Below are positions 1 through 22,623 of a stretch of 25,028 bases of DNA, piece by piece. The translations under genes and the position numbers were made by a program. Source of the DNA: a virus; IMG/VR virus record IMGVR_UViG_3300009156_000268, positions 1 through 25,028 of that record. One strand, written 5' to 3'. Every line of letters starts with the position of its first letter. The stretch's first letter is position 1. The notes below the pieces were generated by a model. That model saw only the letters and a program-made list of their open reading frames with translations. It was not told where the DNA came from and made no database searches.

Positions 1-249
1 CATTCCCTCTTGCGCGAGAATAACGTATTCTTCCTCGTGGTCAATACACCATTGCTGGAAGGTGATAAGTTGATCAGGCGTAATAGACTGTAGCACTCCC
101 GGTCGAAGTCCAGCTGTAACAGTGAGCCGCTCTATAATCGGCCAGACTGTCCCAATAGCCTGCAATCTGGGTTGCCAGGTTTCCCTGGCGCGCTCCGAGG
201 CCCAGACGATTCGAGTGAACTCAGGAAGTGAAAATGGGAGGCGGTCCAT
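1..249 (-). CDS. Partial unknown protein (N-terminal 83 aa) following the radical SAM gene
   Basis: The frame opens at an ATG (249-247) and stays open to the left window edge, so only the first 83 residues are seen. An AGGAG sits about 9 nt upstream of the ATG, which supports a real start. The gene overlaps the 3' end of the radical SAM gene by 29 nt, so the two are probably co-translated. The visible part is soluble and helical-looking, rich in Trp and Arg (WASERARETWQPRLQAIGTVW, then an acidic DHEEEY stretch). It has no signal peptide, membrane segment or motif I recognise. Its position directly after an HxD-repeat protein and its candidate maturase makes it a possible third component of that system (accessory factor, recognition protein or another enzyme), but that is inference from context only. 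Confidence 0.75.
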   Translation of the reverse strand, partial: MDRLPFSLPEFTRIVWASERARETWQPRLQAIGTVWPIIERLTVTAGLRPGVLQSITPDQLITFQQWCIDHEEEYVILAQEGM

Positions 250-1456
250 CTAAAATTACTCCTGGAATGCCGCCTTCAAATACCATTGAGGAGTCGGCAT
301 GGGCATCTCCGTGAGGACTATCTCCATGAGAGTCACCATGAGCAATATCACCATGAGGAGTATCCTGATGATGACCTTGCTCGCCGGTCCAGACTCGAAG
401 ATATGCACCCTCAATCTCAGTCTTTGCTAGCTCAGATAAGACCGCGCCTTTCTGGTCGGTCTCGATTCTCTCGAAGAGCGTATACCAGGTTCTACAATCC
501 CGGGTTCGATTTCTCCAGTCTCCATCAATCGCCGTGCCAGGACACTGTCCTTTACAGAATACGAAATATTTGCATCCGGCGCATCCTCCAACAGCTTGCG
601 GCGTCTGGCGTAGGAGAAGATATCTTTCGAACCCAGGCGTGTCCGCCTTGACCCAGTTAACGCCATCCTTATTTGTTCGTCCACAGTTGGACTTTGATCC
701 ATCTGGTGAAACACCTTGAACAGCAGCAGTAGTAGAAGGATCGCAATGATTCCATATACAAGATACATTTGGATTCCTCTCTGTGAGCAGCTTCTTGATG
801 TCATCGAAAGGTTGGATAGTCATCTTCGATGTCTTAGACCATAGATAGAGACCAGTAAAGGCTTTGATCGTTTCTGCCTCTGTTAAGCAGAGATGCTCTC
901 GGCCCTCTTCGATTTCAAGATTATGAATATTGACGTGCTTAATCCCCATCCGTTCTAGACTGTCGAGCCAAGTTAGTAACTCTACGAAGCGCCACTCGAT
1001 ACCGTTCCGTTTGTGGATAGTAATAATCAGGGACGGTGTAAGTCCTTCTGTGCAAAGGGTTTCAATCGCTGACAGAGTTTGAGTAGTTGCAGTAAGAGTA
1101 TCATCCCCACAGACCCGTAAAGAATTAAGGTAGCCGGGTCCGTCAACAGATATGCCAACCTGGACTCGATACTTCCTGAAAAGCTCGACATGTTGAGGAG
1201 TAATGAGAGTGCCATTGGTCTGTATCCCGTTACTACCGTATTTCTCTAGACCAAACTTCCAGACTTCCTCTAGATGCTCAATAGGAGCTAATAGGGGCTC
1301 GCCTCCGAAAACAGTGAACTGACTGGTCAGCTGTGTTTGGACGCGCTCCCAATCGCGAGGGACATTGATGTTTCCTGCATCTCTCATCGGGTCTTGGTAG
1401 CAATAGCTGCAGGACAGATTGCAGGCGATACCTACTGGTAGATACTCTATAGTCAT
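221..1456 (-). CDS. Radical SAM/SPASM protein with C-terminal His-x-Asp repeats
   Basis: This is a 411-aa radical SAM enzyme of the SPASM type, a group that includes many maturases of ribosomal peptides. The SAM cluster motif CxxxCxxC is C12, C16 and C19, followed by GGEP at 51-54. The C-terminal half has the full SPASM cysteine pattern: C238, G253xxxxC258, then C292xxC295x5C301xxxC305 and C321, enough for two auxiliary iron-sulfur clusters. Residues 362-388 are a low-complexity tail with six HxD motifs, followed by MVFEGG (about 391-396), which resembles MFFEGG in the neighbouring HxD protein. The start ATG overlaps the stop of that upstream gene as ATGA, so the two are coupled. The family and cluster ligands are clear from sequence. 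The likely substrate is the HxD protein (or the enzyme's own tail), and the modification is unknown. A heme or quinone cofactor maturase role is less likely given the context. Confidence 0.93.
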   Translation of the reverse strand: MTIEYLPVGIACNLSCSYCYQDPMRDAGNINVPRDWERVQTQLTSQFTVFGGEPLLAPIEHLEEVWKFGLEKYGSNGIQTNGTLITPQHVELFRKYRVQVGISVDGPGYLNSLRVCGDDTLTATTQTLSAIETLCTEGLTPSLIITIHKRNGIEWRFVELLTWLDSLERMGIKHVNIHNLEIEEGREHLCLTEAETIKAFTGLYLWSKTSKMTIQPFDDIKKLLTERNPNVSCIWNHCDPSTTAAVQGVSPDGSKSNCGRTNKDGVNWVKADTPGFERYLLLRQTPQAVGGCAGCKYFVFCKGQCPGTAIDGDWRNRTRDCRTWYTLFERIETDQKGAVLSELAKTEIEGAYLRVWTGEQGHHQDTPHGDIAHGDSHGDSPHGDAHADSSMVFEGGIPGVILDGPPPIFTS

Positions 1457-2319
1457 GGTCCAATATACGTCGGATCGTCAGTATGTGCTATATCTGCGTG
1501 TAAAGCATCCGAGTGGTCCTGATGTGGTTGATTCACAGCAGGAGAATCTGAGTGCGTATCTCCATGCGTGCCATCTGTATGCGTATCTGAGTGTCCAGAA
1601 TCTCCATGAGCTGAGTCCGTATGTTGATCGCTATGGCCTACGTCGCCATGTGCTGAGTCCCCATGCGGGGTATCGGTATGACTGTCGCTATGCGAGTAGC
1701 CACCTCCACCACCGGGGTTGTTATCATAGTGAATATTGTTAGGTGGCGATGATGCATCATTGAAGGTGATCCAGCCATCCTGATGACCACCCTCGAAAAA
1801 CATATCATAATGCTCTTGATACATCGGCTGATCGCCGTGAGCACCGTCTGTATGTGGCGTATCGGAGTGCGAGTCATTGTGATAGTCATCATGCGGAGCA
1901 TCGCTATGTTGGTCCCCATGCGTAGCATCCGTATGAGCATCCCCATGCCCTGAGTCCTGATGGGGCGTATCTACGTGAGTAGCTCCGCCACCGCCATCCT
2001 GATGAGCAATATCTCCGTGCGCGTAATACCTGCCAGCTCCTCCAGCACTTTGCCAAAGAAAGAATTGCTGGTCTACCCAAATAGATCCTTGCGCAGCAGG
2101 GACAGATGCAGGTCCGACTCTCTGTAAGGTATACATCTTAGTTCCGCTCTGATTAGCATAGCGGAACTGGTCTGTGTCAATCCAAATAGATCCTGGCGCG
2201 CACTGACCTGCTACAAAGTCAGTTAGAAAGACTCCAGCGCATCTCCACTCGATACCATTCTGGTCGATGTAGTGAAAAAACTCGCCGTGAATCCAGATAG
2301 AGCCAGGCGTCTTAGCCAT
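1453..2319 (-). CDS. His-x-Asp (HxD) repeat protein, probable tail-appendage substrate of the radical SAM enzyme
   Basis: This 288-aa protein has two parts. Residues 6-93 hold three imperfect copies of a module beginning GSIW[IV] (at 7, 43 and 78), each followed by an aromatic stretch such as FFHYIDQNG; such modules look like virion or fibre building blocks. Residues 100-288 carry about 31 His-x-Asp triplets, mostly spaced 4 or 5 residues apart, in two blocks (about 101-181 and 208-281). A less repetitive segment between them contains MFFEGGHQDGW and a glycine run. The middle residue of each triplet is usually G, S, T or Q. The gene starts at TAATG with the upstream fibre gene and ends at ATGA with the radical SAM gene. 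There is no signal peptide. Dense His/Asp suggests metal binding or a serially modified peptide. I know of no named family, and the role is inferred. Confidence 0.9.
   Translation of the reverse strand: MAKTPGSIWIHGEFFHYIDQNGIEWRCAGVFLTDFVAGQCAPGSIWIDTDQFRYANQSGTKMYTLQRVGPASVPAAQGSIWVDQQFFLWQSAGGAGRYYAHGDIAHQDGGGGATHVDTPHQDSGHGDAHTDATHGDQHSDAPHDDYHNDSHSDTPHTDGAHGDQPMYQEHYDMFFEGGHQDGWITFNDASSPPNNIHYDNNPGGGGGYSHSDSHTDTPHGDSAHGDVGHSDQHTDSAHGDSGHSDTHTDGTHGDTHSDSPAVNQPHQDHSDALHADIAHTDDPTYIGP
1468..2022 (-). repeat. Degenerate HxD-coding repeat tract
   Basis: This DNA encodes residues 100-284 of the HxD protein and is a string of short imperfect units, 12 or 15 nt long, each reading CAY-NNN-GAY with one or two further codons on the coding strand. 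On the plus strand it appears as recurring words such as CCATG and GTATGNG. The units vary at third positions and in the middle codon, so the motif is conserved as protein rather than as DNA. A related shorter tract lies at about 292-373, at the 3' end of the radical SAM gene. Confidence 0.85.
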
Positions 2320-2981
2320 TATGAAGGCACGAAAGCGTTCTGACCAACTGGAATTACAAGACCAATACTACAGAGAACACCCATGTCTCCTCGTATAAAG
2401 AATCCATATTTTGAAGCGTCTACATTACGGACCATAACAGCGTTATCTGTTTTCGATGTTCCAGCAGTTATAAGTAAACCAAGTGATTGGTTAGGAGTAT
2501 TATGTCCAGTAATAAATTGCGACCAAACGTTTGGGCCACCAAGGACATTAATCGGTGTATAGCCTTGATAATACTCGAAGGTAAATCCTGTTCCTTGAAA
2601 TCGAGCATTACCACCCATTACAGTATTTATGAGGGTGCTACTGCTGAGGGTAATACCACTAATAGCACCACCCGTGATATTGACAGCATTGGCGTTCTGA
2701 TACGCCATCGAGCCTAGTCCGAGTGCTGGGACAATAGCTGCGAGATTTGTCACTCCTGTGCCACCACCAGCAGGAGACAGAACCAGGTCAACAAATCCAG
2801 TAGGGGAGCCACGATACTCCTGAAACTTGACAGGACTTCGGACTAGATTGATAGCTGCATAGGGTGGATTTGTAGGAACTCCATACCCCATGAGAGACAT
2901 AGCATCTAGATCACGATTCTTGACCTCGTCAACAAACGTGACGTAGTTACTCGTGATTGTCGGATTTGCCCAGTCTGCCAT
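2319..2981 (-). CDS. Tail fibre protein
   Basis: This 220-aa protein is rich in Gly, Asn, Ser and Thr. Its centre contains the wording common in trimeric tail fibres: GGGTGVTNLAAIVPALGLGS, then MAYQNANAVNITGG and AISGITLSSS (about residues 72-120). Such repeats usually form elongated beta-structured shafts. The C-terminal half (aromatic and Gly-rich, with YYQGYTPINVLGG) may be the distal domain. An AAGG lies about 7 nt before the ATG at 2981. The gene overlaps the 51-aa coiled-coil gene by 35 nt upstream and shares a TAATG junction with the HxD protein gene downstream. Fibre identity rests on composition, the shaft-like repeat and position at the end of the tail module. The receptor-binding role is inferred. 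Confidence 0.8.
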   Translation of the reverse strand: MADWANPTITSNYVTFVDEVKNRDLDAMSLMGYGVPTNPPYAAINLVRSPVKFQEYRGSPTGFVDLVLSPAGGGTGVTNLAAIVPALGLGSMAYQNANAVNITGGAISGITLSSSTLINTVMGGNARFQGTGFTFEYYQGYTPINVLGGPNVWSQFITGHNTPNQSLGLLITAGTSKTDNAVMVRNVDASKYGFFIRGDMGVLCSIGLVIPVGQNAFVPS

Positions 2982-3102: not shown

Positions 3103-3602
3103 TGCACCGGAAGAGTTACGTTAATCCAGAGATAATTACCGTTCGCTGCGACCCACTGAAATGATGGGAGTGGAGTGAGACTAATATTAGTAGCACCTGC
3201 CCCCACATCCACTGAACCCGACAACCAGCCAGCACCATTGTAGTAAGTAAACATCCCAATCGAACCCGCGGATGCAACACGAAATCCACCAGGTATCGTG
3301 ATGCTGATTATGCCCGGACCACCAGTAAGGTCGAACGCATTGACGTTAATAGCCCAATGCATGACCTTACCAAATACCACGTATCTATTAACTGGGATAT
3401 TTCCTGTGCCTGGGATGACCCAGGTCAATGCTCCCCAAAAATTTGCTATGTTGAATGGAACATCAGTCCACACAGGAAAACGTCCGGCTGGGAGAGTTCC
3501 CTCATTCATCACAGCCGCGTTCATCGGAAGCGGAGTCCAATTCAGACCGTTATCGACACTCCTCTCCCAAACGTGTGAGTTCTGATTCCAGCGTTTCCAC
3601 AC
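3099..3602 (-). CDS. Tail-associated structural protein, unknown
   Basis: A beta-rich protein of 167 aa (from GTG 3602) with many Trp, Gly and Asn residues and a segment WERSVDNGLNWTPLP near the N-terminus, the kind of wording seen in phage tail-fibre and receptor-binding proteins. I place the start at GTG 3602-3600 because it overlaps the upstream TAG as TAGTG, the same coupled junction style used elsewhere in this cluster. An in-frame TTG at 3626 would add 8 residues, and an ATG at 3524 would remove the WERS segment. No obvious Shine-Dalgarno precedes any of these, so translation probably depends on coupling. There is no enzyme motif. Function as a tail tip or fibre-base protein is inferred from position between the fibronectin-domain protein and the fibre. 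Confidence 0.7.
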   Translation of the reverse strand: MWKRWNQNSHVWERSVDNGLNWTPLPMNAAVMNEGTLPAGRFPVWTDVPFNIANFWGALTWVIPGTGNIPVNRYVVFGKVMHWAINVNAFDLTGGPGIISITIPGGFRVASAGSIGMFTYYNGAGWLSGSVDVGAGATNISLTPLPSFQWVAANGNYLWINVTLPVQ

Positions 3603-5038
3603 TAGACGATTCCCCGAGCCTTCCAAGAGATAGGATACGTGACCCTATTTCCCGTTGTATCCAGAGCAAAGACGCTGAATCCTTTTGGGTTCGGCACGTC
3701 TGTAAAATCGTAGATGACGTCAATCGGTTCGATAGCATCTGCCGTAGCAGTTATCGAGTCGATGTCTTTGAACTCTTTATTGAATAGGACCGGTGTTCCA
3801 TTTGGTCTGCCACCCTGCCCATCATGCTCTTTCTCTGCTAGAATGTTACCCGAGTCAAGTTCTCTCTTGACGTCCAAAGTAACTTGAATAAGTGAGAACT
3901 CAGCGAGTGCTTTGTTATCTGATGCAGTAAAATCCAAGTGCATTCTTAGATAACGAAACTTCGGGATAAACTGTGAGTTTCCAACAACAAGAGGACTGAA
4001 GTTAATATTATCTGTTGAGTAAGCCAACGAGATAACCATACTAACTGTAGGAATATGCTCAACAAGTTGATAGTTAATCGTAACGATTGTATTGTTAACC
4101 TCTGTTATATAGTCAATGACTTCGTCATACCAGCCTGTCACCTCAGTCGGCTGAGAGTAGATTGGATAGCCGGCGTTGATCTGCTCCTGTATTGTATTCC
4201 AAGCATTGAGTCGGAAATGCTCATCCCAGGTTGGATAACCAGATACGCAAGCTAATAGACTAGGAGTCGTAGGAAGTCGCTCTACGTTATGTCGCTGTCC
4301 ATTGAGGTCGCTAAGTCTCTGATCCTCAAGCTCGAAGTCTGGTGGTGTATGGACCGAAGTCGTTACGCTACCTTTATTGCCTACATTGCCAGCAACGTCG
4401 ATAGCTTCTACGCTGTATGTATAGGTGCCTGCAAGAGTCTCAAATATCGGAGTAAACGTGCCCGAGCTGACCCCGAACTTGTTACCATCCTTATACAGAT
4501 TGTAACGATCGACCTGATGGCTAGTAAAAGGAATAGTCCAGTAGAGAAGGACGTTGTTATCAATAACCGTTGCTGTTACAAGAGGCGCATTGGGAACGAC
4601 TACCGTGAGAGTAACGTAATCAAACTCCGGTGAGTAGTTCCCGAGCGTATCAATCGTTTTGATAAGAAAGTTATAAGTCCCCGCTGTCAGAGGAGGAAGC
4701 GTAGCGTTAAACGAAGGCGTGCGCGTGACGAACGACGCTGTATCCCACTCTAACTCAGTGCTTCTACGAATCTCATAGAGATGGCCTGCGGGTGTCGGAA
4801 CGCCCCAGGTTAACCCAATAGACAGAGGAAGAACCGCGCCCATGAAATACGGTGGCGCAGGAGCCGCACCGACACCTTGACCACCCGTAGGGATGGAAAC
4901 TTTCTTTAAAACAGGTCCTAGCTTTTCTGTCAGTTCGCTAAGGTTTAAGCTAACATCACGGAGTATCTCCTTGAGAACGAGAACCGAACGGTCATCGTTG
5001 CCTAGTGAGTCGATACGAGAGTCGCGCTGAACAGTCAT
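3602..5038 (-). CDS. Tail protein with two fibronectin type III-like domains
   Basis: This 478-aa protein has a short charged helical N-terminus (about 1-50). Two tandem fibronectin-III-like beta sandwiches follow at about 62-148 and 150-230. They are recognisable from matched patterns: the early SIGLTWGVP and VLLYWTIP strands, YEIRRS and YNLYKDG, and the late GTYNFLIKTIDTLGNYS and GTYTYSVEAIDVAGNVG. The rest (about 240-478) is beta-rich with repeated short strands and may contain a further sandwich such as a discoidin-like fold. Fn3 domains are common in phage tail tips and fibres, where they act as surface or carbohydrate-contacting modules. The start ATG overlaps the upstream stop as ATGA and the stop overlaps the next gene's proposed GTG. 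Tail localisation is inferred from domains and context. Confidence 0.82.
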   Translation of the reverse strand: MTVQRDSRIDSLGNDDRSVLVLKEILRDVSLNLSELTEKLGPVLKKVSIPTGGQGVGAAPAPPYFMGAVLPLSIGLTWGVPTPAGHLYEIRRSTELEWDTASFVTRTPSFNATLPPLTAGTYNFLIKTIDTLGNYSPEFDYVTLTVVVPNAPLVTATVIDNNVLLYWTIPFTSHQVDRYNLYKDGNKFGVSSGTFTPIFETLAGTYTYSVEAIDVAGNVGNKGSVTTSVHTPPDFELEDQRLSDLNGQRHNVERLPTTPSLLACVSGYPTWDEHFRLNAWNTIQEQINAGYPIYSQPTEVTGWYDEVIDYITEVNNTIVTINYQLVEHIPTVSMVISLAYSTDNINFSPLVVGNSQFIPKFRYLRMHLDFTASDNKALAEFSLIQVTLDVKRELDSGNILAEKEHDGQGGRPNGTPVLFNKEFKDIDSITATADAIEPIDVIYDFTDVPNPKGFSVFALDTTGNRVTYPISWKARGIV

Positions 5039-11677: not shown

Positions 11678-14165
11678 TCTGAACTCCTCTAGGTGCTGGA
11701 ATTGACTCTGTATCCTTTGCCTTAGGTGGAGAGCCTTTACCACCCGAGGTTGACTCAGGCGGACCACCCGGAGGTGGCGCGCCCATCATCATCTGCTCCA
11801 TCTGCTCTTTCTGCTCCAACCCTGTGTGCATCTGAAGATGCGCTACGACGTTCATGTAGCCACCAGGATTGGTCTGCTTTTGATCCATCCCAATCTCTGA
11901 AACACACCATTCCTTGATCACTGCAATATGGACTCCGTGGTCGTCCACGTCTTCCTCAGCAGGAATCGAAGGCTGTAGGATAGGAGTCCCGTCTACGGGA
12001 TTGATTCCCATAGGCTGGGGCTGGCCCGAGAGCATCTCGTAAATCTCGTAAAGCTGCTTAGTCCTATCCGAATTACCAGGAACCGTGATTTCTGGCACGC
12101 CTACGAGATCAGCTATTACGTGTCGATTCTCAGGATGGAACATCGCCTCATTGAGAGCTTCGTTGTTCAGTTCAAGGAGGCGCATAATTACGTCGCGCTT
12201 CTGACTCCAAGCAAGAGGGAATTGCTCAGAAAGCTCTGGCTCGACCTCTCCAACCTCTCCCGTCATCTCCGCCTTGCGAATCCAGACGTTCACAAAGGTA
12301 TTCTTACCCTGTGATTTGACCAGTTTCTCGTCTGTTTTCATGTTCTTGGCGTAACCCTTGACCGCTTTGGTCTCGATGTCAGCCCAGAAGAACGAAATCA
12401 TCTTGTAGATAATCTGTAACCTTTGCAGAGCCTGAGCTCTGGACATGCTGTATTCCGCAGCGGTGTCCGAACCACCTTGCGCGTTACCGCCGTAGACCGA
12501 CGGGACTGTTCCCAACACAAACTGACCAGCAACCTGTAGGTCGTCAGCAAACTCTTTGTGCTCCCGCGATAGCATGGCAGCTTTGTTAGTATAAAATGCT
12601 GCGCCAATGTTCCCTCCAGCAGGAGCCTTAACGGGATATAAAGACCCAGGAGAGACTTCCATCTCTCGGTATTTCTGGAAATCGAGCACAGAAGAGTCAA
12701 CAAATGTCTCTGGGATTCCGTATCGTATCGTTTCAATAGTAAGCTGGAATAGTTCATTGGTCATCTCTTGAACAGGAACAATAGCGTTAGCCATCGGCTG
12801 CCCGTGGACTCGATCTAGAATAGGGTCGACCGAAACGGTCCAATACTCATCCATGTCCTCATCGTTAACTTCTGCCAGGACATCGTTAATGTAGACCGCT
12901 CGGATTCCCTTCGGGAACTGTTCCTTAAGGGCGAGCATCCTCTCGTCGTCGCTCTTTCCGAGCTTATTGAACATCCAGGGGCGCAACCAGACCTGTCGAC
13001 AGGTGCAAACATCTGCATCGTCATCGTTCTGCACGATTGACGGACTCCTTGCCCATCGATCATACCTTTCACTGTCTGCCGTAGGCACGATCTTATCCGC
13101 GATGCGAGGGAACTTTTCCTGCATTTCGGCGACTTCGTGCTCGGAGTTCAGAATCAGATAGCCTGACTGTTCAAGAGTGCGCGCCCTTGGAAAGATTTGG
13201 ACGTTAGTTGCACCATACAACTCGATGATCTGACGCATCTTAGGCACAACTTCTTCGTAGTCGAACTCCTGCGTTGGCTCAGTCTGCATGTCCTGCATGG
13301 GCTGAACCATCGACCCGCAGTTAGGACACAGTGTGCCACCTTCTATCGGAGGCTCCATCAGATTCTCTGGCGGAGGCTCGGGCGGCAGCATCGGGTCTTC
13401 TACTGGTGGCTCCTGGGGATACTCCATTTCAGCAGCCGACTGGGTCCCAAGTATTTGCTCCGCTTCGTCAATGGGAGGCAGGAGTTCCGGTGCCGCTTGG
13501 GAGACCTCACCCTCAGGGACGGGCAGCCCCTCGGGCGCGGGGGGCGGCACCGGAAGTTCGCTGTTCATCGGTTGAACAGCTAGATTCTCTCCGCAGTCTG
13601 GGCAATAGGACACTGGCGTTTCCTGAACGCCCTCTTTGAAATGCGGAATCCTATCGACGCCATACTTCGGATGTTGATCGTTATACGTATAAGCTGCGAT
13701 AATTCCCTGATTATAAAGCAGTCCAATCGCCTTCATGAAGAGGAACGGAACTTTGTTATGCTTACGGATTAGCTCGGCAATCCTGCTAAACGACTGAGCA
13801 GTGTAAATATCCGCAGATACGTCGGCGTCATTTGGAAAGAAGCGAGTCGCAGGAATAGACTGCGAAATAGCCGCGACGATAATCTCTCCGTGCGCCTTGT
13901 AGATATTGACAACCTTGTTCTCTAAGTTGGCGTCATCTTCAACCACTTCCCCATCAGGGTTCTGGGAGATGTAACGCCAGTCGTGAGCTATCTCAGAGAA
14001 AAAGATGTTCTGGAGACCTTCCCAGAAATACTCGTTCCGCTTGTAGATACGCATCAAGCGATCGCGCGCAAACTGGTCCCTATGGTCGATGTCCAGAATA
14101 ATTGAGTCAAGGCCCTGCCGTAGTTCGTCCGGCAGGATCTCGTCTTCGTCCATCGGGATAGTCAT
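11667..14165 (-). CDS. Portal protein with zinc-knuckle/proline-rich insertion
   Basis: An 832-aa portal-like protein, the ring at the capsid vertex through which DNA enters and leaves. Support: position between terminase and scaffold, an acidic helical N-terminus, and the portal-like core FVLGTVPSVYGGNAQGGSDT, AAEYSMSRAQALQRLQIIYK and WADIETKAVKGYAKN. P22 portal is about 725 aa. The excess here is explained largely by an insertion: a CPDCG knuckle (C188, C191) and a CPNCG knuckle (C280, C283) enclose about 88 residues dominated by Pro and Glu. Both knuckles are followed by similar VQPM wording, so they probably form one zinc ribbon split by a flexible loop. The C-terminus (about 790-832) is Gly/Pro/Met-rich. 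The start overlaps the upstream stop as ATGA. Portal identity is fairly sure; the role of the insertion is unknown. Confidence 0.8.
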   Translation of the reverse strand: MTIPMDEDEILPDELRQGLDSIILDIDHRDQFARDRLMRIYKRNEYFWEGLQNIFFSEIAHDWRYISQNPDGEVVEDDANLENKVVNIYKAHGEIIVAAISQSIPATRFFPNDADVSADIYTAQSFSRIAELIRKHNKVPFLFMKAIGLLYNQGIIAAYTYNDQHPKYGVDRIPHFKEGVQETPVSYCPDCGENLAVQPMNSELPVPPPAPEGLPVPEGEVSQAAPELLPPIDEAEQILGTQSAAEMEYPQEPPVEDPMLPPEPPPENLMEPPIEGGTLCPNCGSMVQPMQDMQTEPTQEFDYEEVVPKMRQIIELYGATNVQIFPRARTLEQSGYLILNSEHEVAEMQEKFPRIADKIVPTADSERYDRWARSPSIVQNDDDADVCTCRQVWLRPWMFNKLGKSDDERMLALKEQFPKGIRAVYINDVLAEVNDEDMDEYWTVSVDPILDRVHGQPMANAIVPVQEMTNELFQLTIETIRYGIPETFVDSSVLDFQKYREMEVSPGSLYPVKAPAGGNIGAAFYTNKAAMLSREHKEFADDLQVAGQFVLGTVPSVYGGNAQGGSDTAAEYSMSRAQALQRLQIIYKMISFFWADIETKAVKGYAKNMKTDEKLVKSQGKNTFVNVWIRKAEMTGEVGEVEPELSEQFPLAWSQKRDVIMRLLELNNEALNEAMFHPENRHVIADLVGVPEITVPGNSDRTKQLYEIYEMLSGQPQPMGINPVDGTPILQPSIPAEEDVDDHGVHIAVIKEWCVSEIGMDQKQTNPGGYMNVVAHLQMHTGLEQKEQMEQMMMGAPPPGGPPESTSGGKGSPPKAKDTESIPAPRGVQNVP
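13560..13580. repeat. Palindrome GCTGTTCA-N5-TGAACAGC inside the portal gene
   Basis: A perfect 8-bp inverted repeat with a 5-nt centre (TCGGT) lies in the portal coding sequence beside the first zinc knuckle. With the following TAG it matches the intergenic palindrome at 24689-24705 and its flank at 19 of 21 positions. It could be an operator-like site or chance; in the portal it is also constrained as codons. Confidence 0.4.
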
Positions 14166-17100
14166 TTCTTAGCCTTAGCCTTCAGGAGAGCCTCGACTTC
14201 TGTAAGTCGCTTGTGACCACTAAAGGTCCACCTATCACCTGTTTTAGTCATAAACTTCTGAATGTAAGGATAAGAGGAAGCGTCAGCGTGGTAAACCGCA
14301 AGCTGGAGCTTCACGAAGTCCTCAGTGCTCATTCCGACCTTTTTGGCCTTCTCGCTAAGAACGCGCGCGACGTCTGCACCACCTTTACTCGCAGCTTCAC
14401 CGCTGACCAGAGGACCTAAGAGATCGTGATTGAAGAGTTCTGTAGCGAGGTTAATCTCTCTACTCTTAAAGCCCTTCTCCTTCAGAACCCTCTGCATGAC
14501 CGGAATGCTATGAGTATGCTGAGCACTCTTTCCCGCGCCAGACGCGATTGCCTTGCCCTTACCGATATCGTGCAGAGCAATGGAGACGTCCATCAAGCTA
14601 CGAAGATCTACATCGCTACCAAAGCGCTCTGAGATCTCATCTAGCTCGTAGTCGGGCATGTGTTTCGCCCACTCCGTTTGGACTTCCTTTGTATGCTTCT
14701 CGATAGAGCCGCGCTCCGTTCCAGAGTGCATCTCATAAAGCTTTTTGAGCTCTGGGTCTTTCTTAAGTGACTCGATGATGTTCTCTGATGTTTCAACCGA
14801 CTCTTCAACCGACTCCTCAACCGACTCCTCACTTCCAGCCTTAAACTTCTCCTTATACTTGGCCCAATACTCTTTATTATAAGCCTTTTGTTCCTCTTTG
14901 GTTTTCTTCGGACCAGGACCCTTCTTAGGCGTTCCCTCTTTTAGCTTTACGCCAGCCTCTGAAGTTGAGAAGTCTTGGAAATGCCGAGCTTTCGTATTAG
15001 TCGGGTCGTGCTCGCTGTAGTCGAGATAATCCCTCTTACCCTTTGGTTGCTTATTAATCCAGTCTTTAGCCTCTTCAGCGGTATCGAACAGTGCTACTGT
15101 CTTATCGTTAGCAGTGTTATAGACTTCGTGTTTGCCAGGCTTTGTCCCGTGTTTAGCGTAATGCGCTTTGTCCTCAGGAGACTCAACTTTGATAGGCTTC
15201 TGCATCTCAGGAGATTCAAATAGCTTATCAACTACCTCCCCAACATCGAAATGACCTGACTCACCAGGATCAAGCGCGCCCTTCGGAGCCTCTGGGGTCC
15301 CATGCTCCGCTGTATGAGCATCCTTGAGCTTCTTGTATTCAGCAGGATACTCTTGCGCTAACGCATACGCGTCTGGACCATTTAGGTCGTTAGCAAAGAC
15401 ATCTGCAAAGGCTTCCTGATCGTAGGCAGACTTGTTTACAACATCAACGATCGACTCGATATAGGCTTGGTCGGTATTCGGATATGCCTTCTTCCAGTCC
15501 TGACCACTCTTGGTCTTTCCAATAGTGCCCCAGCCGTCCTTTACTGGCTCGACATCGTCGAGTTTATCAGGTGCCGGACCAAAGTCTAGATCGCCCTTCG
15601 GCGCCGCAACTGTCGTGAAGTCCTGGAAGTTCGGGTCTGTCCCAAGGTTGGGCATGTGACCACTAACACCCAGATGTTCTTTGTCTGGGTGAGCTGTCTT
15701 CCAAGCCTGTGCCGAGGCATAGTCATCGAAGACTGCTACAGGCTTACCAGTGCTTGTGCTGTAGACATCATACTTCGTGGGATGAACGTATCCGTATAGC
15801 TCGCTCTCGAACTTCTTAAAGTCTGCTGGATATTTTTGCTTATACGCCTCTTTCCCCTCAGGCGCGAGCTTAGCAAAGTTCTCAGCAAGTTCCTTATTAG
15901 TTTGAGTGCTACCGACTACAAAGTTCTGATGGAAGGTATCTGCCAGGTCGCCCGCAGCTTTCTCGATAGCTGGCGACGGAGCTGCAACTGCTCCGGGCAG
16001 AGGCGCACCAGACAATTTTGCGTGGAGATTAGGCATCTCCTTAGCAATCTTGTCTTGCTCAAATTTCGACAGCGCACCCCAGATTTGCTGAGGACTCGTA
16101 AGGGTGCCTGCCTCTATCTCAGCATGTAAGAATGGGAAATTGGTCTTAACGTATTCCTTACCCTTTGGACCGATATTACCCCAGGCGTAGCCTCCCGGTG
16201 CCGCAACTCCACCAGTCGGCGTGCCTGACTCAAGATGGCTAGCAGACGCAGGATGATACTTTTTGAAGTGTGCCTTAGCACCAGCGCTCATCGCATGGTA
16301 TGCGTCGACTTGGTCTTGATGCGTAGCATCCATGTCTAACCAGACACCACTAGAGAACTCATTAGCCTCTGCTACAGGGTCGAGCGCACCTTTTGCCTTT
16401 AGAGCCTCTTTATAAGCTGAGCTATTTAGAACAGCTTTATGAGAATCTGGGAACTGTTCTCCAAACGCCTTTTTTGCCGCAGGGCTGAGATTTACAAATT
16501 CCTTAGCTGCTTCTTCATAGCTGACAGTAGGACTCAACCAGAAATTATTATTGAAGTCTTGTGCTTCCGACTCGTGCTTTGCCAGCTTCAATGCAGGCTC
16601 AGGAGCCTCAAGGACACCTGTAGCTGGAGGAGTCTCAACCTTCAGATTCTTAGCGTAGTGCTCACTCCACTTGCTCTTATAAGCCATCTGCACATCAGGC
16701 TTGAGCGCGTGCCATGCAGCAGCTTTGGCTTGAGGACTCAATCCTGGATTGTTTATAACATCCCAATGAAAGTCCTCTGCTCTATCAGCAGCCGCATTAT
16801 TGGCCTGAACCTTGAAGTCCCAAAGCTCATCAACGTCGTTAGCAGCATCGTAAGAGCCCTGACTATGTAGATAGTCACTTGCTAGCTTGTGTAGGGTCTT
16901 CGGATCTAACTTAGCCTGCTCGCTAGGGTCCTCGGCGAGGAACTTACCAAGCGGACTATTTGGGTCTGGAGTATCACCAATCTGATCGAAAATTCCTTTA
17001 ATATCATTAACGTGTGTTATCATTTCCGATTCTTTATCAGCAATCGGAGCAGGAGCCCAAAGTCCTCCAGTAGGCTTCGGAGTAGCCGCAGCCTGGATAG

Positions 17101-18634
17101 CAACCCTAGGATTCGCAACAGGTCCTGGGACTGCGCCAGCCCTCGCTGGCATTGGTGTTGGCGAGGGTAAATCTCGGGGGAAGGTATATCCAGGAGCTAC
17201 GCCAAGAGGCTTCCAGGGCTTGGTCTCAGCTCGGTCTGTGACCATAGCTGCGTTGGGATCGAAAGCGATAGATTCTGGACTTCCGATTGCAGCAGTGTCT
17301 CGATAGAAAGTCGCGCCCCAGGGAGAATTTGCTATCGTAGGCATGTCAGGATGATTAAGAGGGCTTTCTCCTCCCAATCCCCTTATTCCATGCACATTGC
17401 CCCGAGCTAGTTCGCTCGCCAGATTCTTTACGGCGCGCTCCGCTACTGGATCATTCTTAACTGAAACAAATGGGACCTTACCAGAAATCTGGTCTGCGGG
17501 GTCTACAACGTATTGTGACTGGTCCTGCCAAGCTCTCCAGATACGCTTGATCTTGTCTGCATCATGTTGTGGATGCAGCTTATCGACAATAACCTGGACA
17601 TCTTCCTTAGGCACTGGCTCTAAGAGGTTCAGAGCCAGCATGTTATCAGGAAAATCAACAGGCATCTCGTAAGAGCCAAATCGAGATGCTACTGGACTTG
17701 AAGGTAGCTTACCAAGCTGACGCGCAACTTGAGCCTGCTCTGGAGAGACCATACCGCCATGAGCGTAACGCTGGAGAACATCAGCTCCACTAGTTGGCTG
17801 GAAGCCATGCTCGACCATCGCATCGATAGCAGTTTTACTATAGTCTCCGTGCGCGAATCTCTTAATATTCTTCTGTTGCTTGGCGAGCCACATCGGAATT
17901 GCAGCTTCCTTAGCAACATCGCCAGTCATTCCAAGGAGTTTTGCAGCCCCTATACCAGCGTGCGCGAGACCACCTACAGCAGTCGCAGCAGCCTTTTCTG
18001 GAATGAAATTACTTAGATCTGCGTTATTTAGAGCAAACTTCGCGCCATAGTAAAAAGCTGGGTTCCTCTGATACATCTCGTTTAGAGCTGTAGGACCCAC
18101 TCGTTTACCAAGCTCACGCGCAAGCTCCGGCTGTTCTGCCGTTGGGTCCATCAGGCCGCTTTTAACAGCCTTACCCATCTCCCAGGCAATATCTGACGCA
18201 GGCTTCCTTTCGGAACCAGTGTTTAGTGGACTTGTAACATCCCAGGCAGTTCTGACCCCTGCAGACATTGGAGAGGTCGTTAGTGCTCCGACCGTGCCTA
18301 AAATCTTCTCGCCCCTGTCTCTAACTTCGGGAGTTAAAAGACCTGAATAGAAGTCGCGCGCAGACCTCAGATTGCTACGAACAGGATCTTTTGCAGCTTC
18401 CTGGAAATCTCCGTAGAGTTTCTGTGCGCCACCGAGTAGGTCAGAACCAGCCTTTTTTAGGTTCTGTCCAGCTTGACTCCATGTAAGTGGAGGACCAGAG
18501 GGGAATGCCGGAGGAGGTGGCGGAGGAGTAGGATCGTATATAGCGCGAGGCAGAGAAGTAGGCAACATTGACTTTAAGTCATTGTATTGCCTGCCGATCC
18601 AGGGAATCCAGCCTTCTCTAGACTCGCCGCCCAT
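14162..18634 (-). CDS. Giant multidomain (polyvalent-like) protein with C-terminal HD hydrolase domain
   Basis: A 1490-aa protein between terminase and portal. Residues 1-50 end in a proline run. About 55-250 is helical and Gly/Ala-rich. About 300-500 is a mixed region I do not recognise. About 610-945 holds five related helical segments of 50-60 residues with a common [FY]xxxxP-[ED] ending, and a sixth similar one occurs near 1070-1110. A beta module (xVYxTxxxKxVAxFDxxxxAxxW, ending FQDF[TS]T) occurs twice, at 954-1006 and 1167-1222. After a Lys-rich linker and ESVE repeats, about 1300-1480 is an HD-superfamily domain: EKHT (H1314), LHDIGKG (H1355, D1356), QHTHS (H1373, H1375), FNHD (H1403) and YHAD (D1451). 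HD enzymes hydrolyse phosphate esters using metals; the substrate here is unknown. The architecture recalls phage polyvalent proteins that may be packaged and injected. The start is a TAATG junction. Confidence 0.85.
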   Translation of the reverse strand: MGGESREGWIPWIGRQYNDLKSMLPTSLPRAIYDPTPPPPPPAFPSGPPLTWSQAGQNLKKAGSDLLGGAQKLYGDFQEAAKDPVRSNLRSARDFYSGLLTPEVRDRGEKILGTVGALTTSPMSAGVRTAWDVTSPLNTGSERKPASDIAWEMGKAVKSGLMDPTAEQPELARELGKRVGPTALNEMYQRNPAFYYGAKFALNNADLSNFIPEKAAATAVGGLAHAGIGAAKLLGMTGDVAKEAAIPMWLAKQQKNIKRFAHGDYSKTAIDAMVEHGFQPTSGADVLQRYAHGGMVSPEQAQVARQLGKLPSSPVASRFGSYEMPVDFPDNMLALNLLEPVPKEDVQVIVDKLHPQHDADKIKRIWRAWQDQSQYVVDPADQISGKVPFVSVKNDPVAERAVKNLASELARGNVHGIRGLGGESPLNHPDMPTIANSPWGATFYRDTAAIGSPESIAFDPNAAMVTDRAETKPWKPLGVAPGYTFPRDLPSPTPMPARAGAVPGPVANPRVAIQAAATPKPTGGLWAPAPIADKESEMITHVNDIKGIFDQIGDTPDPNSPLGKFLAEDPSEQAKLDPKTLHKLASDYLHSQGSYDAANDVDELWDFKVQANNAAADRAEDFHWDVINNPGLSPQAKAAAWHALKPDVQMAYKSKWSEHYAKNLKVETPPATGVLEAPEPALKLAKHESEAQDFNNNFWLSPTVSYEEAAKEFVNLSPAAKKAFGEQFPDSHKAVLNSSAYKEALKAKGALDPVAEANEFSSGVWLDMDATHQDQVDAYHAMSAGAKAHFKKYHPASASHLESGTPTGGVAAPGGYAWGNIGPKGKEYVKTNFPFLHAEIEAGTLTSPQQIWGALSKFEQDKIAKEMPNLHAKLSGAPLPGAVAAPSPAIEKAAGDLADTFHQNFVVGSTQTNKELAENFAKLAPEGKEAYKQKYPADFKKFESELYGYVHPTKYDVYSTSTGKPVAVFDDYASAQAWKTAHPDKEHLGVSGHMPNLGTDPNFQDFTTVAAPKGDLDFGPAPDKLDDVEPVKDGWGTIGKTKSGQDWKKAYPNTDQAYIESIVDVVNKSAYDQEAFADVFANDLNGPDAYALAQEYPAEYKKLKDAHTAEHGTPEAPKGALDPGESGHFDVGEVVDKLFESPEMQKPIKVESPEDKAHYAKHGTKPGKHEVYNTANDKTVALFDTAEEAKDWINKQPKGKRDYLDYSEHDPTNTKARHFQDFSTSEAGVKLKEGTPKKGPGPKKTKEEQKAYNKEYWAKYKEKFKAGSEESVEESVEESVETSENIIESLKKDPELKKLYEMHSGTERGSIEKHTKEVQTEWAKHMPDYELDEISERFGSDVDLRSLMDVSIALHDIGKGKAIASGAGKSAQHTHSIPVMQRVLKEKGFKSREINLATELFNHDLLGPLVSGEAASKGGADVARVLSEKAKKVGMSTEDFVKLQLAVYHADASSYPYIQKFMTKTGDRWTFSGHKRLTEVEALLKAKAKK
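14793..14828 (-). repeat. Three tandem 12-bp repeats encoding the ESVE linker
   Basis: Three head-to-tail copies of TCAACCGACTC[TC] (plus-strand reading) at 14793-14804, 14805-14816 and 14817-14828 differ at one base. They encode the repeated ESVE units just before the HD domain of the giant protein. They are nearly identical at the DNA level, so they probably arose by recent slippage, and copy number may vary among relatives. Confidence 0.8.
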
Positions 18635-21465: not shown

Positions 21466-22086
21466 TTAGTGTCGGGTTCGGAAGCGACGAGCGGCTGCTA
21501 CTAGACCCGACCCGAAAAGTAGCAGCGTAGCTGGCTCGGGAACGGCGGTCGCTGTCGCCGTGTCCGTCGCTGAGAAGCTGAATGCCGTGCCGGCGTTCGT
21601 GACGGCTAGCGAATAGGTTCCTGGAGTGTCGTCAAAACCTGCAATGTGGAACAATCCGGTGCCAACGACGAGCAGACCAGAACTGTTCCTGAAAGGACTA
21701 GTGACAGTCAGCATGTCAAAAGTCGCGCCCGTTGCAGAGGTCTGCCAGGAGGCGATCGGAGCCGTCGGGTAGATCCCACAAGATCCTGCTACGAAGCAGA
21801 AGTCCTTGATCGTCCCGCTGCCGACGATGCCAGCAAAAACGCCAGTGCCGCCGTCGATGCTCATTGGACCAGCGACGTTCGGCGTCGGAGCACCTGTATT
21901 GGTGAAATCAAGCGCGACAGCTTGGTCGAGAGTCGTCACAGTCCCATTTCCAAGGACCGGGAGAACGCAATCAGCGCCTGGACAAACAAGCGCACTCTGG
22001 GAGAGCGTCACTGAACCTGTAATCGGGACAGCGTATGCGGTTGGAGCAATCGTGACGGCGAACAAAAACGCGGCGAGTTTCTTCAT
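21466..22086 (-). CDS. Exported PEP-CTERM-sorted protein
   Basis: A 206-aa secreted protein. Residues 1-19 are a classic Sec signal (MKKLAAFLFAVTIAPTAYA, cleavage expected before VPI). The body is beta-rich, full of Gly, Thr, Ala and Val, with two cysteine-containing loops (CPGADC and CFVAGSC). The C-terminus is a textbook PEP-CTERM signal: VPEPATLLLFGSG (from about 182), a hydrophobic helix and a basic end RRFRTRH. In bacteria this tripartite tail is recognised by the membrane enzyme exosortase and the protein is sent to the cell surface or exopolysaccharide. No exosortase is in this window, so a host enzyme would be needed. AGAGGGA lies about 5 nt before the ATG. The gene sits 9 nt after a lipoprotein gene in an otherwise virion-type operon, which is very unusual. 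Its role may be host-surface alteration. Confidence 0.88.
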   Translation of the reverse strand: MKKLAAFLFAVTIAPTAYAVPITGSVTLSQSALVCPGADCVLPVLGNGTVTTLDQAVALDFTNTGAPTPNVAGPMSIDGGTGVFAGIVGSGTIKDFCFVAGSCGIYPTAPIASWQTSATGATFDMLTVTSPFRNSSGLLVVGTGLFHIAGFDDTPGTYSLAVTNAGTAFSFSATDTATATAVPEPATLLLFGSGLVAAARRFRTRH

Positions 22087-22095
22087 GTTTCCCTC

Positions 22096-22623
22096 TTAGA
22101 ATCGAGTTGCTGTCCATTGTGCGGCTGCGTCGAACCCTACGACATTCCAGCCGAACTTCGAGTTACCACAATAATCAATAATGATATCTACAGCCCAAGC
22201 ACCGATATTATCGGACGTTGCTCGATAGGCGATGACATCGTGAGAAATCGATCCAGAGGATTTGATGAGGTATCCCCATCGCGTATCAGACTTCCTTAGA
22301 GCGAGTATAACAGAATCAAGATAAGTCCAAGAACTAGCACCGTAAGTGTCTTCACAAGACTTGGTAATGTAGGATTGAGGGACAGCTTCGGCAATCTGGC
22401 GCGCGTTTGCAGGGATGTTGACAGGAACTTCACTGCCTCCCGTAGGAGTAGCGACTGGCGCGCTCGGAGTGGGACTAGGAGTGAAAGCACCAATGTCATG
22501 TATCTCGATAGTATTGGTGTTCGTATTGGTGTTGTCGATCGTCGGACCGGTGATGTTTATATCACAAGCTGTGACGACGAGCAGAAGAACTACAGCACAG
22601 ATACTTCGGCTCGTCGTCTTCAT
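22096..22623 (-). CDS. Lipoprotein, unknown
   Basis: A 175-aa predicted lipoprotein: basic start, hydrophobic stretch AVVLLLVV and lipobox VTAC with lipidated Cys20. Asp at the +2 position would, by the E. coli rule, keep it at the inner membrane, though hosts differ. Residues about 28-70 are a low-complexity Asn/Thr then Pro/Ala/Thr linker (NTNTNTNT, PSPTPSAP). The C-terminal domain (about 75-175) is compact with two cysteines (C90, C152) that could pair, and a repeated aromatic strand pattern ending WTATRF. I do not recognise the fold. It lies 16 nt after the proline-rich gene and 9 nt before the PEP-CTERM gene, so these two exported proteins are probably made together. Superinfection exclusion or envelope modification are possibilities; an outer-membrane spanin is less likely because of its size and folded domain. 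Confidence 0.82.
   Translation of the reverse strand: MKTTSRSICAVVLLLVVTACDINITGPTIDNTNTNTNTIEIHDIGAFTPSPTPSAPVATPTGGSEVPVNIPANARQIAEAVPQSYITKSCEDTYGASSWTYLDSVILALRKSDTRWGYLIKSSGSISHDVIAYRATSDNIGAWAVDIIIDYCGNSKFGWNVVGFDAAAQWTATRF

Follow-up and report, generated by a model that had tools for sequence, protein, structure and literature searches.

A viral radical SAM/SPASM cassette that probably cross-links a repetitive tail-module protein at aromatic-x-Asp triplets

We analysed a 25,028-nucleotide stretch of viral DNA (IMG/VR record IMGVR_UViG_3300009156_000268, positions 1 to 25,028; hereafter the window), one end of which encodes a protein of 288 amino acids (aa) rich in His-x-Asp (HxD) triplets, a radical S-adenosylmethionine (SAM)/SPASM enzyme and a gene of the DUF483 type (domain of unknown function). 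We propose, with a probability of roughly 0.7, that these genes form a virus-encoded maturation cassette, in which the enzyme and its DUF483 partner staple the tail-module protein at aromatic-x-Asp triplets. The cassette comprises the following features.

1453..2319, minus strand: HxD repeat protein, 288 aa, the proposed substrate and tail appendage (motif counts; AlphaFold model)
1636..2019, minus strand: first part of the main HxD repeat block, residues 101-228 of the HxD protein (motif positions)
1453..1456, minus strand: ATGA stop/start overlap of the HxD gene and the enzyme gene (sequence)
221..1456, minus strand: radical SAM/SPASM enzyme, 411 aa, the proposed HxD maturase (Pfam PF04055; invariant Cys; AlphaFold model)
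290..370, minus strand: HxD tail of the enzyme itself, residues 363-388 with six HxD (disordered in the model)
1..249, minus strand: 5' part (83 codons) of the DUF483-type gene, which starts at 249, overlaps the end of the enzyme gene and is truncated at the edge of the window

An initial annotation, made from the DNA letters, had described a protein with about 31 HxD motifs and GSIW modules, coupled through an ATGA junction to a full SPASM radical SAM enzyme that could modify it. The triplets number exactly 31 and take up 31 of the 33 His of the protein, whereas 20,000 shuffles of its composition gave a mean of 4.5 and a maximum of 13. They follow one another at a spacing of 4-5 and run on to residue 281, after three GSIW-type beta modules at about residues 6-100. 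In the AlphaFold model, residues 1-100 mostly have a confidence score (pLDDT) of 70-90, and the repeat region is disordered (pLDDT below 50), a prediction for the uncross-linked chain that carries no information on the cross-linked form. A fold search with this model gave no significant match in the PDB and one viral match, A0A451ED92 (342 aa, 35% identity), of the same length as the HxD protein of Thermus phage phiMa. The ATGA junction was confirmed as well, and the enzyme, encoded by the one radical SAM gene of the window, scored 49 bits against Pfam Radical_SAM (PF04055; cut-off 29.5). Its Cys residues invariant in 55 relatives are those of CxxxCxxC (C12, C16, C19) together with C233, C238, C258, C292, C295, C301, C305 and C321. 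Analysis beyond the first reading added the six HxD at the C-terminus of the enzyme, the DUF483-type third gene and an upstream gene joined through TAATG.

To the pairing of repeat protein and enzyme we came from both sides. A DNA pattern for HxD repeats, made without enzyme information, found 91 stretches on 88 contigs in a collection of 2.9 million viral contigs, against 1 stretch for a matched, equally degenerate HxE control pattern (Glu codons). Seven of the 91 were left out as not HxD proteins (no in-frame open reading frame (ORF) in L167, L174, L213 and L227; an apparent shadow frame of Thr/Ala-rich sequence in L160, L181 and L186), so that 81 contigs with a true HxD ORF remained. The enzyme family is encoded on 69 of these 81, mostly as the directly downstream gene; in 46 stretches the enzyme start lies -3 to +12 bp from the HxD stop. 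Searches of whole records added four enzyme-bearing records to those found from the fetched stretches. Five of the 12 enzyme-less contigs (L165, L166, L193, L207, L235) stop within the HxD gene, on the side where the enzyme gene is expected.

From the enzyme side, about a hundred enzyme loci were found in the same collection, and 73 of the 79 viral loci have an ORF of six or more HxD on the same strand within 6 kb. Four of the remaining six (L108, L139, L148, L152) are truncated a short way upstream, a fifth, L134, carries a His-x-Asn (HxN) protein, and L105 is the sixth. Of the 69 bacterial loci, 60 have either an HxD-rich protein or a short HxD-terminated precursor nearby; at L021/L022 the sole candidate is a 94-aa ORF with three HxD, and no aromatic-x-Asp partner was found near the bacterial enzymes L034, L051, L060 (contig or locus cut), L065 and L069. 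The last two, from a Chitinophagaceae metagenome-assembled genome (MAG) and Fulvivirga marina, do have the enzyme together with a DUF483-type partner. The initial annotation had named two contrary patterns, HxD proteins regularly occurring without the enzyme and relatives of the enzyme beside an unrelated substrate; both were looked for in these loci and neither emerged. The HxD protein and the enzyme thus form a system, and, judging from these gene neighbourhoods, the HxD protein is very probably the substrate of the enzyme.

The motif itself was examined in 133 non-redundant partner proteins (23,770 repeat-region residues, with about 4,165 positions two places after a His). Asp occupies 92% of these +2 positions, Asn 4% (173) and Glu 0.3% (13), with His found 39 and Ser 12 times. 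Where Asp lacks a His at -2, that place is enriched for Tyr (8.9-fold), Phe (5.3-fold) and Trp (4.7-fold), nearly all other residues being at or below expectation (exceptions are Arg, 1.3-fold with 8 cases, and Cys, 1.9-fold with 3 cases); before Asn lacking such a His, Phe is enriched 6.5-fold. Unlike the His +2 counts, the enrichment of Tyr, Phe and Trp is not built into the selection of the proteins. Since Tyr, Phe and Trp stand in for His, and Asn for Asp, the repeat unit is aromatic-x-Asp/Asn, not HxD alone. Across 21 aligned relatives, in an alignment that tends to line up H and D by itself, conservation is 96% for H, 92% for D, 20% for x and 19% for the spacers. Apparent exceptions fit the same rule: YxD in L074, mixed YxD/HxD in L133 and in an archaeal cassette, and a natural Asp-to-Asn variant in the HxN protein at L134:12859-13545, which lies beside tandem enzymes.

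This unit is the three-residue cyclophane motif, which sharpens the modification that the initial annotation had left general. In triceptides, a radical SAM/SPASM enzyme bonds an aromatic ring at position i to the beta-carbon of residue i+2. Among the reviewed examples, HaaB/YhhB make C2(His)-Cbeta(Ala/Arg), YxdB makes C3(Tyr)-Cbeta(Asp) and OscB makes C7(Trp)-Cbeta(Asn/Asp), and a C4(Phe)-Cbeta(Asn) link is known as well; His, Tyr, Phe and Trp are all ring partners in known members (PMC11002830). His-x-Asp, Tyr-x-Asp, Phe-x-Asn and Trp-x-Asp fit the triceptide rule, which metal binding leaves unexplained. Like the triceptide systems (AmcB, YhhB, HaaB, YxdB, OscB/GrrM, XncB/XyeB, FxsB), the cassette has an enzyme with a radical SAM core and a SPASM auxiliary-cluster domain beside a linked substrate with repeated aromatic-x-Asp/Asn triplets. 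It differs from them in its substrate, a leaderless 288-aa tail-module protein with 31 triplets, in its obligate DUF483 partner and in its viral carrier; the short precursor with leader and core typical of triceptides is absent from the window phage and occurs in 20 bacterial relatives. Given the triceptide precedent, aromatic-Cbeta cross-links probably form in the HxD protein.

The proposed pathway would run as follows. In the newly made HxD protein, GSIW-type modules would provide attachment, and the aromatic-x-Asp triplets would lie in a long flexible stretch. Working with its obligate DUF483 partner, the co-translated enzyme would abstract a hydrogen atom from the beta-carbon of Asp (or Asn), and this carbon would then bond to the aromatic ring at position -2 (His, in some cases Tyr, Phe or Trp). 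A small rigid ring would form at each triplet, with a mass change of about -2 Da. With up to 31 rings here, or up to about 100 in some relatives, the flexible chain would stiffen into a tail appendage that resists proteases. Stiffness and protease resistance are tentatively suggested as the benefit. The HxD tail of the enzyme itself probably serves as a substrate-like tether or is modified as well. Two or more tail HxD are mainly a viral trait (57 of 74 viral versus 7 of 48 bacterial enzymes assessed). On the viral contigs L141, L138, L145 and L187, two enzyme genes occur in tandem, and one or both of the enzymes end in a tail of 12-25 HxD; such enzymes look as if they were large substrates themselves.

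The enzyme probably represents a separate, new family, because its scores against all named families lie far under the cut-offs. AmcB and DynA, both cyclophane-forming, are among its best-scoring named families, and the score against the anSME family is 64 bits (cut-off 349). Its AlphaFold model (pLDDT 86.5) is most similar in the PDB to anSME with bound peptide (4k39, TM-score 0.63/0.71, 20% identity) and to ChlB with its precursor, both of which act on peptides. With anSME the enzyme shares the nearest solved fold and two auxiliary clusters; it differs in that the conserved motif of its HxD partner contains no Cys or Ser, for which reason formylglycine chemistry was rejected. Thioether chemistry of the sactipeptide/ranthipeptide kind was excluded by the scarcity of Cys donors, which make up 0.2% of repeat-region residues. 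A PADLOC match to antiviral viperin (44 bits over about 100 residues, with SPASM absent there) reflects superfamily likeness. The Hxs system, which the initial annotation took for the closest analogue, also has His-x-z repeats beside radical SAM enzymes, but its third residue is Ser, where Asp or Asn stands here (Ser in 12 of about 4,165 positions), and on this ground membership was rejected. It also uses an HxsB/HxsC pair instead of one enzyme with DUF483; neither HxsB- nor HxsC-type enzymes are among the 25 best of 59 NCBIfam matches. TvgA/TvgB resembles the cassette in that a radical SAM enzyme repeats one modification along a repeat protein, and differs in its short bacterial peptide, TVGG repeats and cyclopropylglycine product (PMC9062424).

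Several observations weigh against stapling. The enzyme scores far below the cut-offs of the named cyclophane families (AmcB 78 versus 425, DynA 75 versus 450, YhhB 50 versus 445 bits), and its nearest fold, anSME, is a formylglycine maker. No report of a His-Asp i/i+2 cross-link was found in the open-access literature. Seven fragments (L184, L191, L216, L220, L222, L228, L239) contain the HxD gene and the enzyme's side of it with the enzyme absent; none of them is known to be complete, and most resemble L203, whose tandem enzymes lie some kilobases away in its genome. Finally, it is from the position of its gene that the HxD protein is placed, quite probably, on the virus particle. In a rival reading, the enzyme modifies the HxD protein without a cross-link, for example by epimerisation, hydroxylation, desaturation or methylation of Asp or His, possibly with a DUF483-methyltransferase taking part. 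The pattern scan, the co-occurrence and the motif fit such a modification equally well; many DUF483 partners bear a methyltransferase domain, some bacterial clusters hold a beta-hydroxylase, a C-methyltransferase or an epimerase-like enzyme, and anSME is not a cyclophane former. We nevertheless consider it unlikely, since it leaves unexplained why an aromatic residue stands exactly two places before Asp/Asn and why Tyr, Phe or Trp can replace His, and the methylation variant also meets with the Thermus phage DUF483 proteins (312 aa), which lack the methyltransferase domain.

The remaining explanations fare worse. His and Asp are common metal ligands, lines of His-x-His in phage fibres bind iron, and the repeat region is predicted to be disordered without ligand, so the repeats could form a metal-binding or self-associating spike, with the neighbouring enzyme acting elsewhere or assisting. 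This idea, one variant of which was raised in the initial annotation, has lost ground and is now very unlikely: Asp is replaced by Asn far more often than by Glu or His, His gives way to Phe and Trp, whose side chains cannot bind metals, the HxE pattern is nearly absent, and the repeats co-occur tightly with one radical SAM clade in viruses, bacteria and an archaeal plasmid. Modification of phage DNA was proposed for the radical SAM/DUF483 module by Kolesnik et al. 2024, who place homologues in some cyanobacteria near deazapurine DNA-modification genes (PMC11437467). That role is highly improbable for an enzyme of the SPASM peptide-maturase type whose coupled gene encodes an HxD protein with a motif rule that tracks the enzyme, and whose bacterial neighbours are enzymes of ribosomally synthesized and post-translationally modified peptides (RiPPs) and precursors ending in HxD; a cyanobacterial relative (L018) likewise has an HxD protein adjacent, on the opposite strand. 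Repeat-rich phage proteins are common, and a low-complexity protein could have an auxiliary enzyme as its neighbour by chance. A coincidence of this kind is scarcely credible, and is already refuted by the co-occurrence counts and the motif rule: 69 of 81 contigs share both genes in a collection where about a hundred enzyme loci were found, gene order and overlap are conserved, and viral enzymes bear HxD tails of their own.

A DUF483-type ORF accompanies the enzyme at 141 of 148 loci (68 of 69 bacterial and 73 of 79 viral); 18 of the bacterial loci encode the two as a fusion. Close relatives of the window gene run on into a methyltransferase domain, and the L002 homologue matches Pfam DUF483 at 19.9 bits together with methyltransferases; the domain is optional rather than essential, because the Thermus phage proteins do without it. 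Invariant residues are D120, C133, C134, C187 and H227 (numbering of the L002 protein), and the protein may bind substrate or metal. DUF483 thereby gains a consistent job, working alongside a maturase of aromatic-x-Asp motifs.

Among 50,697 phage records, full-length relatives of the enzyme are found only in the Thermus phages Cumys, phiMa and phiLo, as are DUF483 proteins, and all three grow on Thermus thermophilus HB8. The HxD proteins of Cumys and phiMa adjoin the enzyme, have 54 and 53 triplets (counted as HxD/N) and are the two of the three phages' that match the window protein; their enzymes are 44-45% identical to that of the window. In phiLo, three HxD proteins (55, 101 and 72 HxD) come right after base plate wedge genes, and the enzyme lies about 4.4 kb away on the other strand. 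The enzyme tree places the window sequence in a supported group of 15 sequences, all of them viral. A haloarchaeal plasmid of Halomicrococcus (NZ_CP100467.1; L253:5338-8498) has, after baseplate genes, a protein with GSIW and HxD/YxD/FxD, the enzyme and DUF483; the cassette sits in an archaeal plasmid or provirus.

In bacteria, 20 short precursors consist of a leader and a C-terminal H[I/L/V/F]D, with ends such as ...AAVVHIDF, ...IVHIDL, ...TIHIDIL and ...IIHLDG, and they constitute an apparently unexplored peptide class. Examples are L055:4660-4914, L079:10670-10969 and L052:6660-6893, with 17 further bacterial loci. Several of these loci lie near a RiPP radical SAM C-methyltransferase (TIGR03975) or a YydG-like enzyme. 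The C-methyltransferase of the bacterial clusters scores 594 bits (cut-off 282), and at L023:10055-10909 an aKG-HExxH-type peptide beta-hydroxylase (TIGR04267, 79 bits, cut-off 40) follows a fusion of radical SAM enzyme and DUF483. Some bacterial HxD stretches are the ends of large proteins; at L011:1-4053 (a Myxococcales MAG), a 1,350-aa tectonin/tachylectin lectin protein with 22 terminal HxD directly precedes the enzyme. On balance we favour the wider view that bacterial and archaeal viruses staple tail appendages at dozens of aromatic-x-Asp triplets with a radical SAM enzyme of their own and its obligate DUF483 partner, and that bacterial relatives apply the same chemistry to lectin-like or large proteins and to short peptides.

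The initial annotation had also suggested that the system was undescribed, which holds in part. A module of radical SAM enzyme, a protein of no assigned function and DUF483 was already reported in the Thermus phages Cumys and phiMa, with similar loci in prophages, by Kolesnik et al. 2024; the text drawn on here proposes DNA modification and does not mention HxD repeats (PMC11437467). It is the same cassette as that of the window, with HxD protein, radical SAM enzyme and DUF483 protein: the window unites enzyme, DUF483 and a third conserved protein in one locus, and matches to the first two occur in phiLo, Cumys and phiMa. In the open-access literature, to which the search was confined (subscription papers lay outside it), no paper was found that describes HxD repeats as the substrate of a radical SAM enzyme, and none on a virus particle protein matured by such an enzyme. 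The type of chemistry is thus known, the enzyme family is probably new, and the substrate class and the setting are new. If stapling is right, the HxD protein would be the first constituent of a virus particle to be matured by a radical SAM enzyme, and its rings the first cyclophanes of the His-x-Asp type. The cassette also corrects the published guess of DNA modification. Small secreted peptides are the known setting of radical SAM cross-linking; in this cassette it would act at dozens of sites of a large tail-module protein. This suggests how fibres may be hardened where heat or proteases abound, and the enzyme family may lend itself to making protein polymers stapled at regular intervals.

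The cassette and its upstream neighbours all lie on the minus strand and are tightly packed. The neighbours are as follows.

2319..2981, minus strand: 220-aa protein, probably of the tail module, with a TAATG junction to the HxD gene
3602..5038, minus strand: tail protein of the host-specificity or central fibre type, upstream of the cassette (PHROG 1727, 'tail protein and host specificity', E=1.5e-11)

The PHROG 1727 match supports the placement of the HxD cassette after tail genes, as the initial annotation had it; family searches with the 220-aa protein gave no confident match. Elsewhere in the window, a 1,490-aa protein is encoded between the terminase and portal genes (14162-18634, minus strand); a family search with it gave no good match, and it is perhaps a polyvalent or injected protein. 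Two further minus-strand genes encode a protein with a lipobox-like signal (VTAC; 22096-22623) and one with a signal-like N-terminal sequence (21466-22086), both of which are possibly envelope or superinfection proteins.

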